This document shows positions 14,489 to 17,883 of a stretch of DNA of 34,765 nt, one piece after another. The notes beneath the pieces are model-generated. The model was not told the origin of the DNA. It ran no database searches and worked only from the letters and a program-made list of their open reading frames with translations. The translations under genes were made by a program, and so were the position numbers. Within the stretch, counting starts at the first letter, position 1, and the number at the start of each line of letters is the position of its first letter. Location: assembly GCA_024281365.1 (NCBI GenBank), contig JAMXAU010000009.1:1-34765 (forward strand), written 5' to 3'. This stretch comes from Nitrospira sp. (GTDB taxonomy: Bacteria > Nitrospirota > Nitrospiria > Nitrospirales > Nitrospiraceae).

Positions 14489-14564
14489 GCCGGCGTAGCT
14501 CAGTTGGTAGAGCAGCGGTTTCGTAAACCGCAGGTCGCCCGTTCAATCCGGGTCGCCGGCTCCA
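14489..14564 (+). tRNA. tRNA-Thr (anticodon CGT)
   Basis: A complete 76-nt cloverleaf with encoded CCA. The acceptor stem GCCGGCG pairs with CGCCGGC, the D-arm is GCTC...GAGC, and the anticodon stem GCGGT/ACCGC carries loop TTCGTAA with anticodon CGT (reads ACG). The T-arm is GCCCG/CGGGT with loop TTCAATC. Discriminator T, then CCA at 14562-14564. It stands alone, with no other tRNA nearby. Confidence 0.97.
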
Positions 14565-15972: not shown

Positions 15973-16278
15973 TCAATAGCGGCTACGCTTTGGACCACTA
16001 CTAAAACGACCAGCGCCCCCAGACCGAGGTTCCATCGGTTTGGCCTCATTGACGGTTAAGGATCGCCCATCCATTTGCGATCCGTTCAAGGCCGTAATAG
16101 CCGCCTGAGCCTCTTCCGTGCTCGACATTTCGACAAAGCCGAATCCACGAGATTGGCCGGTGAACTTATCTGCGACGATACGGGCTGACTCCACGGTCCC
16201 ATGTTCGGCAAAGAGGGTGGTCAGTTGCGATTCGGTCGCTGCGTACGGCAATCCGCCGACGTATAATTTTGCACTCAT
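15973..16278 (-). CDS. RRM-domain RNA-binding protein
   Basis: A 101-residue single-RRM protein of the cyanobacterial Rbp/glycine-rich type. RNP-2 is KLYVGGLPY at the N terminus and RNP-1 is RGFGFVEM in the middle; a short Gly/Ser/Arg-rich tail ends in GPKRSRY. The start at 16278 is set by AAGGAG seven nt upstream; the longer open frame to 16476 is not needed. These proteins bind RNA in the cytoplasm and are often cold- or stress-responsive. A monocistronic unit is likely, since a strong terminator follows. Confidence 0.93.
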   Translation of the reverse strand: MSAKLYVGGLPYAATESQLTTLFAEHGTVESARIVADKFTGQSRGFGFVEMSSTEEAQAAITALNGSQMDGRSLTVNEAKPMEPRSGGAGRFSSGPKRSRY

Positions 16279-16550
16279 AAACATATCTCCTTCCAGGTGT
16301 GATGATATGGCCGAGACTCGAGAAATAGTTTGCGAGGGGAAGGAGAGGGCCGAAGACGCAACCAGGGAGGCGGCTTGGGTCAGGCTTCCGATCAGGTTTC
16401 TCGGTAACAACAACATCGGTGATGGGCCCTTATGATCTCGTTTCATGCGAGGCCCTTCGCGATGAGACCCGTGCATCCTAGCAGGTGTGGGAGTAAATAG
16501 CTATTCGGCGTCTCGCATGAGCGGTATCCGTTCTGTGCTTTGAAGATGAA

Positions 16551-16847
16551 TCACTGGTTGCCCGATGATCGAGGCCCATGCCAGATCAGGTACGGCGGTT
16601 TTTTCATCGTCTCACCTGCGTTGGGGTAGAGGCGCAGGGTATAGCTGTATGCCTGTTCTTGGGCAGTCAGGCATGTAGATGAAGAGAGGAGGTGAGTCGC
16701 GATATTGCGGAAGTCCGTATGATCATCAGTTTCGACGACAGTATAGACTGAGCAGGAAAAGTCCCCTTCCTTCGAGCATTCCGTGCTGATCGCGAGGTAG
16801 GATCCATCCGAAAACGTCATGAGTGGCTCAAGGTTCAGACGGCTCAT
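16551..16847 (-). CDS. Small protein of unknown function, duplicated copy A
   Basis: A 98-residue product starting MSRLNLEPLMTF with AAGGAG five nt before the ATG. It is nearly identical to the product at 17017-17286 up to YTLRLYP, after which the C termini differ completely, as expected if the duplication break lies inside the gene. The shared core has three cysteines (TECSKEG, FSCSVY, STCLTA) and no recognised domain. It is the downstream copy of a tandem duplication. Confidence 0.6.
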   Translation of the reverse strand: MSRLNLEPLMTFSDGSYLAISTECSKEGDFSCSVYTVVETDDHTDFRNIATHLLSSSTCLTAQEQAYSYTLRLYPNAGETMKKPPYLIWHGPRSSGNQ

Positions 16848-17009
16848 TACGACTCCTTTTGTCTTGAGAGGTTTGGGTGTATGGCCCAGTCTTGCGGGAG
16901 AGGCGCGATCGGTAAACCACGCGCACCCGCCAAGGGATGCGCACACTCAGAAGCCTAATAGAGTGGTGCTTGAGAACTGATCCCCAGTGTAAACCAGCGA
17001 GAATCTGGG
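16623..17009. repeat. Tandem duplication, copy A
   Basis: Direct repeat of the block at 17062-17440, offset by 439 bp at the aligned start codons. It holds the small-protein gene, its ribosome-binding site and a degenerate remnant of the 3' end of the next upstream small gene (CAAGCACCACTCTATTAG is kept). Small indels separate the copies. Confidence 0.88.
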
Positions 17010-17016
17010 CAATCAC

Positions 17017-17286
17017 CTATCCTGGAACTATGACAGGGAAAGATTGCCTGAAGTCTTGGCGGGGGTAGAGGCGCAGGGTATAGCTGTATGCCTGTTCTTG
17101 GGCAGTCAGGCATGTAGATGAAGAGAGGAGGTGACTCGCGATATTGCGGAAATCCGTGTGATCATCAGTTTCGACGACAGTATAGACTGAGCAGGAAAAG
17201 TCGCCTTCCTTCGAGCATTCCGTACTGATCGCGAGGTAGGATCCATCCGAAAACGTCATGAGTGGTTCAAGGTTCAGACGGCTCAT
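17017..17286 (-). CDS. Small protein of unknown function, duplicated copy B
   Basis: An 89-residue product, MSRLNLEPLMTF onward, with the same AAGGAG site as copy A. Over the shared ~73 residues, one substitution (IASHLL here, IATHLL in copy A) was seen. The C terminus is RQDFRQSFPVIVPG. It lies just downstream of the small basic gene at 17390-17575. Cysteines are conserved between copies. Function unknown. Confidence 0.65.
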   Translation of the reverse strand: MSRLNLEPLMTFSDGSYLAISTECSKEGDFSCSVYTVVETDDHTDFRNIASHLLSSSTCLTAQEQAYSYTLRLYPRQDFRQSFPVIVPG

Positions 17287-17440
17287 TACGACTCCTTTTG
17301 TCTTGAGAGGTTTGGGTGTATGGCCGCAGTCTTGCGGGAGAGGCGCGATCGGTAAACCACGCGCACCCGCCAGGGATGCGCACACTCGCCTAATAGAGTG
17401 GTGCTTGAGGACCCCAGTGTAAACCAGCGAGATCTGGGTC
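17062..17440. repeat. Tandem duplication, copy B
   Basis: Probably the parental copy: here the repeat runs without disruption into the intact 3' end of the small basic protein gene, whereas copy A carries only a damaged tail of it. Confidence 0.88.
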
Positions 17441-17575
17441 TTCACCTTCTTGGGCTGGACGGTCCGGCTTGTTCGCCTTCCGCTCCACGCGGCGCGCTTC
17501 TTTGTCGCGCTGCTTCTGTTGACGTGATTTTTCTCGGTCTCTCTTGGCGGCTGTAGTTTTTCCTGGTCCTCCGAT
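17390..17575 (-). CDS. Small basic protein with no canonical start codon
   Basis: A 61-residue, very basic frame (GGPGKTTAAKRDREKSR... ending in GPQAPLY). AAAGGAGG lies 5 nt before an ATC (complement of 17573-17575), exactly where a start should be. Going upstream in frame to the first stop there is no ATG, GTG or TTG. Either ATC is used as a rare start, or the start codon has mutated, or there is a base error. The composition (long Lys/Arg/Glu/Gln helix, then an acidic and aromatic tail) looks like a real conserved small protein. No family name is assigned. Confidence 0.5.
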   Translation of the reverse strand: MGGPGKTTAAKRDREKSRQQKQRDKEARRVERKANKPDRPAQEGEDPDLAGLHWGPQAPLY

Positions 17576-17613
17576 GATGTCCTCCTTTCGGGTGCGATGT
17601 ACTGATGTTCGAG

Positions 17614-17883
17614 TTACGACGAAGCGGGATTCCGTTTACGGCCAGACGCAGATCGCTTGGCACCTGGCCCTGAGCGCCCATCCTGCTGTTGAGAGCGGGA
17701 CACTGTATCGGGACTCAATCCTTGACTGGCGGCTGATGTAATTTGACGACGAAGGTCTTCAATCGAGGTTGCCGATGATAATCCTGCCGGATCTTGAAGC
17801 CCGAGCTTCTCCCACCGCACCTTGGTACGAAGTACGATTCGCCGCCGCTTATTCGGGGATTTCGTTCCCCATGATGTTTTCAT
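17614..17883 (-). CDS. Small basic protein of unknown function
   Basis: An 89-residue product from ATG 17883, with GGAG five nt upstream. It has a basic N terminus (KTSWGTKSPNKRRRIVLR) and a middle part suggesting a short helix pair (SIEDLRRQITSAASQG). The tail is Ser/Gly/Arg/Lys-rich, probably disordered, and could bind nucleic acid. It is part of the minus-strand run of small genes between 16.5 and 18.3 kb. No family recognised. Confidence 0.6.
   Translation of the reverse strand: MKTSWGTKSPNKRRRIVLRTKVRWEKLGLQDPAGLSSATSIEDLRRQITSAASQGLSPDTVSRSQQQDGRSGPGAKRSASGRKRNPASS

Follow-up and report, generated by a model that had tools for sequence, protein, structure and literature searches.

Gene B, a short frame on the minus strand of a 34,765-nucleotide stretch of Nitrospira DNA (the window; contig C139 of a 2.63 Mb genome of 76.5% completeness), very probably has as its start codon AUC, very rare in this role; this judgement rests on comparison with its relatives, ATC being found at this position in 81 of 90 distinct B-like frames from the genus. 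The AUH codons (AUU, AUC and AUA) pair imperfectly with the initiator tRNA and are rejected by IF3. The reading that we prefer, to which we give a probability of roughly 0.7, is that B is a real gene whose AUC start is set by a strong Shine–Dalgarno sequence and whose low yield would be tuned by IF3, as for infC.

The sequence-only reading had described a Shine–Dalgarno sequence followed after 5 nt by ATC and a basic frame of 61 codons, without a canonical start back to the upstream stop, and this description was confirmed on the minus strand (Table 1). The spacer between AAAGGAGG and the ATC is ACATC (5 nt), and the ATC is followed by 60 further sense codons and a TAG (17392-17390, minus). 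The in-frame stop on the 5' side is a TAA (17638-17636, minus), and none of the 20 codons separating this stop from the ATC is ATG, GTG or TTG. A second ATC (17578-17576) lies immediately 5' of the start ATC and is not conserved in relatives. The leader was less folded than shuffled sequences (z +2.46) and is not strongly folded; no structure masking the Shine–Dalgarno sequence was seen in the folding analysis.

Table 1. Features of the window in and around gene B
Feature	Position	Strand	Basis or remark
Shine–Dalgarno sequence AAAGGAGG of gene B	17588-17581	minus	read directly; AAGGAGG kept in 75/81 genus ATC frames
ATC start codon of gene B	17575-17573	minus	ATC in 81/90 genus frames
Gene B, 61 codons + stop; basic helical protein of a family without a name	17390..17575	minus	frame reading; relatives; no Pfam, NCBIfam or PDB family
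Gene A, small basic protein with AUG start; upstream partner of B, its stop 38 nt 5' of the ATC	17614..17883	minus	conserved
Gene X copy 1, small protein between B and RRM gene	17017..17286	minus	tandem duplication
Gene X copy 2	16551..16847	minus	tandem duplication
Single-RRM RNA-binding protein gene	15973..16284	minus	Pfam RRM_1, E=2.9e-23; in line with B
tRNA-Thr (anticodon CGT), only tRNA found in window	14489-14564

To compare start codons within the genus, loci matching B were fetched from a set of 79 Nitrospira genomes, 73 of which had a match. The 81 frames with ATC include one that breaks down later (L118) and one that borders unread bases (L104), and 75 of them retain the Shine–Dalgarno motif AAGGAGG. 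A single frame in the set, the paralogue L081 in genome G063, has ATG at exactly the start codon of B; having drifted to ATG, it indicates that AUC is not always needed. The remaining eight comprise six remoter paralogues whose ATG lies a few codons downstream of this position (L113-L116, L119 and L120), a decayed copy with AAC as its start triplet, whose frame breaks down and which is the sole match in its genome (L117, G075), and a weak fragment with ATT at the start codon (L121). When identical sequences among the 81 ATC frames and L081 were merged, 77 distinct sequences remained, 76 with ATC and one with ATG. In this same set the codon directly 5' of the start took 11 different forms, and the codons at invariant residues of B also varied (four at T8, five at R12, and AAG for K11 in 52/77). 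An alignment of orthologues had been proposed earlier as the means of checking the start, with ATG as the outcome that would speak against it; within the genus, ATG was not encountered at this position beyond the one paralogue.

A search at the level of the order found a match to B in 197 of 235 genomes, and a sample of these loci was typed for start codon. In f1, the family to which the genus belongs, loci from the remaining genera had ATC in 34 of 52 cases, the other 18 being seven with ATG, four with GTG and seven distant paralogues with ATG further in; the 11 ATG/GTG loci are L167, L173 and a divergent group in which most proteins begin PTHPKVT or PTNPKVT. Family f2 had ATC in five loci, one of them (L168) truncated by a stop, and ATT in one. 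All three f4 loci had ATA; they match B in its N-terminal half alone, with E values of about 1e-7 to 1e-8. The start was ATG in 13/13 f3 loci, in 9/9 loci from other families of the class (the outgroups) and in two of four distant relatives, named Syntrophobacteraceae and Desulfarculales; in the remaining two, both Pseudomonadota MAGs, GTG lies one codon beyond the B start position. AUG paralogues aside, the start codons in the sample typed were thus limited to AUC, AUU, AUA, AUG and GUG. B has a start other than AUG, GUG or UUG behind a good Shine–Dalgarno sequence, and this start is kept by selection across species, as ATC in 81/90 genus frames and as ATC, ATT or ATA in f1, f2 and f4. Because AUC, AUU and AUA replace one another between families, selection appears to retain the AUH class rather than one triplet. 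A tree of IF3 (midpoint root) placed f3 outside (f1,(f2,f4)) with support of 92/86, and f5, f9 and f13 beyond, which backs, without fixing, the branching order of the families. The simplest history would then be one change of B from AUG to AUH on the stem of f1, f2 and f4, after which AUC, AUU and AUA may have been exchanged for one another, with occasional reversion to AUG; the divergent set of f1 loci with AUG or GUG starts is like the f9 type and may reflect transfer. Apart from B itself, the same bacterial family holds a distant family of AUG-start paralogues (L113-L116, L119, L120 and L322-L328); in the first six of these an RRM gene follows on the same strand after about 270 nt.

The earlier reading had also likened B to infC, and the comparison is apt, as infC of the same bacteria begins at ATC; control of B in a like manner is plausible. 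Among the infC loci typed (L122-L139, L218-L272 and L333-L340), those of f1, f2 and f4 that could be read begin with ATC, or with ATT in the case of G044, and the upstream stop can be as near as 9 nt; the match in G104 was partial, and searches of G000, G076 and G225 did not find infC. All 14 f3 genomes typed have ATG, without an obvious Shine–Dalgarno sequence, a sign that this family may no longer autoregulate IF3, and eight outgroup genomes of the class whose B starts with ATG have infC starting with ATC. Counted by hand over the genomes typed for both genes, infC and B were both AUH in 48, infC was AUH and B AUG or GUG in 17, both were AUG in 12, and infC AUG with B AUH was found in none. 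This tally fits a dependence of the AUH start of B on discrimination by IF3, without proving it, few evolutionary events lying behind the numbers. A strict rule that the start class of B follows that of infC was rejected, since the outgroups combine an ATC infC with an ATG B; nine f1 genomes also have infC with ATC yet B with ATG or GTG. B is not itself IF3, having no Pfam or NCBIfam match and infC being a separate gene, and any action of IF3 on B can therefore not be self-regulation.

The frequency with which such starts arise was examined in G040, another Nitrospira genome, of which 800 kb were scanned for further AUH-start genes. An SD-like hexamer together with an open frame was found at many sense codons, ATC among them 23 times, and ATH was not enriched among these frames. 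The pattern in one sequence alone is consequently weak evidence, which conservation lifts far above chance. A second version of the scan recovered B and yielded two other ATH candidates (3531658, ATC; 3305405, ATA); infC of G040 failed its strict list despite a Shine–Dalgarno sequence and a good coding score, so the scan leaves room for further AUH genes. Given the lack of enrichment, a large set of AUH-start genes is unlikely, with the reservation that the strict filters missed infC.

Searches of Pfam and NCBIfam gave no match for B and weak stray matches only for its relatives, a profile search of PDB gave none, and there was no match in the plasmid collection. By Pfam, B is without the RRM_1 domain that its neighbour carries, and no homology to a known initiation regulator was found. 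In the predicted model (mean pLDDT 78.6, pTM 0.42) a lone helix spans residues 8-34, counted among the 60 that follow the start. B is a mostly helical, highly basic protein that probably binds RNA or the ribosome, as its charge and its neighbours suggest.

Gene A lies upstream of B for 64 B frames in 94 loci; it belongs to no known family and adjoins B in family f3 too. Translational coupling to gene A was considered as the cause of the AUC start and rejected, as the upstream neighbour changes (A in g1, RRM in f2) and AUH stays. An RRM gene lies on the strand of B in 65 of 219 loci, and all 71 linked pairs are in line, although both figures contain some loci more than once and the flanks are mostly short, which makes absence uninformative. 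The three B-neighbouring RRM proteins tested all contained RRM_1 (Pfam). The RRM gene is 1.1 kb downstream of B in the window and close upstream of it in f2 (L169, L170, L172, L174 and L332) and in the distant relatives L031 and L032. A DEAD-box helicase gene was near B in 34 fetched loci, its helicase domains being confirmed for one (L148). In cyanobacteria, proteins of the RRM type contribute to tolerance of cold and salt (PMC9333190). The window also holds a tandem duplication (16551-17445) in which 264 nt recur 439 apart at 98% identity, together with a further 49 nt; it contains both copies of gene X, and close to 16966-17017 there is another stretch like the B 3' end. A relative of gene X (L005:3583-3879) had no match in Pfam.

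Two alternatives would deny that the conserved ATC is a start at all. It is scarcely credible that it is a sequencing error, a recent mutation or the mark of a pseudogene: a single frame of this kind is unremarkable in 800 kb of G040 and one decayed copy (L117) exists, but 73/79 genus genomes have a match, the amino acids are conserved and synonymous codons vary, and the many separate genomes that concur on ATC already contradict this explanation for the genus. Since the ATC is kept across relatives, it is a real conserved near-cognate start and not a base error. It is also very improbable that the ATC is an ordinary isoleucine codon in a protein begun upstream of it, or in one that ribosomes reach by a frameshift or by reading through a stop codon. 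This explanation could draw on the 17/81 genus ATC frames that have an in-frame ATG, GTG or TTG upstream and on the 58/81 in which a started frame in another register reaches the B site; against it, the other 64/81 lack an upstream in-frame canonical start, the nearest in-frame stop is 15 nt 5' of the ATC in 15/81, no canonical start in any of the three registers reaches the site in 16/81, the upstream codons are not conserved, and ATG stands exactly at the start codon in L081, f3 and the outgroups. Within B the first canonical codon comes at codon 9 or later, at positions that differ among frames, and 12/81 have none. Initiation at AUC is then the only economical reading, because ATC and the Shine–Dalgarno sequence are kept, stops lie upstream, canonical starts are absent or variable and the neighbouring codons vary; the claim of non-canonical initiation made from the single sequence is in this way strongly supported by the 81/90 genus frames.

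The third alternative accepts AUC as the true start but holds that it sets no more than a constant low level of B, one that suits its stoichiometry to A and to the RRM protein, with IF3 having no part as a physiological signal. B does adjoin the AUG-started gene A (64 B frames in 94 loci) and lies near AUG-started RRM genes, the outgroups keep B at AUG though their infC is AUC, so that the start classes are not locked together, and in S. aureus expression is held low by non-canonical starts (PMC13009471). A weak Shine–Dalgarno sequence or a GUG or UUG start would, however, be a simpler route to low yield, yet the Shine–Dalgarno sequence is strong in 75/81; the AUH class is retained in most loci of three families, and in the hand tally no typed genome combined B AUH with infC AUG. 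We consider a constant level doubtful, and rather favour IF3 as tuning the AUC start of B. On that preferred reading, the strong Shine–Dalgarno sequence would place the ribosome at AUC, rejection of this codon by IF3 would give a low basal yield, and translation of B in the cell would rise whenever the ratio of IF3 to ribosomes drops, as with AUC-started infC; the product would be a helical basic protein, RNA- or ribosome-binding and often encoded in line with a single-RRM protein. The conserved odd start points to deliberate control of the amount of B. A more speculative extension, which we regard as improbable, is that B and its RRM partner form the output of an IF3-titration sensor, in which ribosomes in excess of IF3 would derepress AUC-started infC and B together; acting on RNA or ribosomes jointly with its RRM partner, B would then feed back on initiation. 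IF3 homeostasis would on this view have a second arm, one that has been fixed in Nitrospirales ever since f1, f2 and f4 shared an ancestor.

Starts of this kind are known elsewhere. The AUU start of E. coli pcnB reportedly keeps its protein, poly(A) polymerase, scarce; it differs from B in codon and in protein. PMC5472188 describes IF3 as repressing non-canonical starts and gives ATT as the infC start of E. coli and ATC as that of Streptomyces; in S. aureus it is AUA (PMC13009471). Autoregulated infC (AUU, AUC or AUA) resembles B in its strong Shine–Dalgarno sequence and AUH start, but B is not IF3 and any control by IF3 would be exerted by the product of another gene. Parallels outside infC in these sources are sigR of Streptomyces and cvfC1 and ccpN of S. 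aureus. Like B, sigR has a strong conserved ribosome-binding site and a conserved non-canonical, IF3-repressed start (GTC in 32/34 species, GTT in two), and we count its co-transcription with a partner as a further likeness (PMC5472188); it differs in encoding a sigma factor, in using GTC/GTT and not AUH and in being kept within one genus, and IF3 repression is experimental for sigR whereas for B we infer it. The cvfC1 (AUU) and ccpN (AUA) genes share with B a conserved AUH start and an extended Shine–Dalgarno sequence (PMC13009471); their proteins are unrelated to B, and their starts were mapped by ribosome profiling, that of B by conservation. As reported in these two sources (PMC5472188, PMC13009471), conservation of the non-infC starts extends across a genus or a group of closely related strains. 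We found no report of non-AUG start codons in Nitrospira in the open-access literature, the titles and abstract openings on Nitrospira and infC did not concern start codons, and a wider open-access search returned nothing on gene B among the matches listed (best 10 of 46). B is a new and deeply conserved member of a kind already known from infC, pcnB, sigR, ccpN and cvfC1, and stands out by how deep its conservation reaches and by the selection that seems to act on the AUH class.

Gene finders restricted to ATG, GTG and TTG would miss or mis-start the B family. With its AUH class kept over three families through exchanges of AUC, AUU and AUA, its in-place ATG variant and its AUG outgroups, the family is a natural experiment on start-codon selection. 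It is found in nitrite-oxidising Nitrospira, organisms central to nitrification, and is linked to RRM proteins, whose bacterial functions are poorly characterised.
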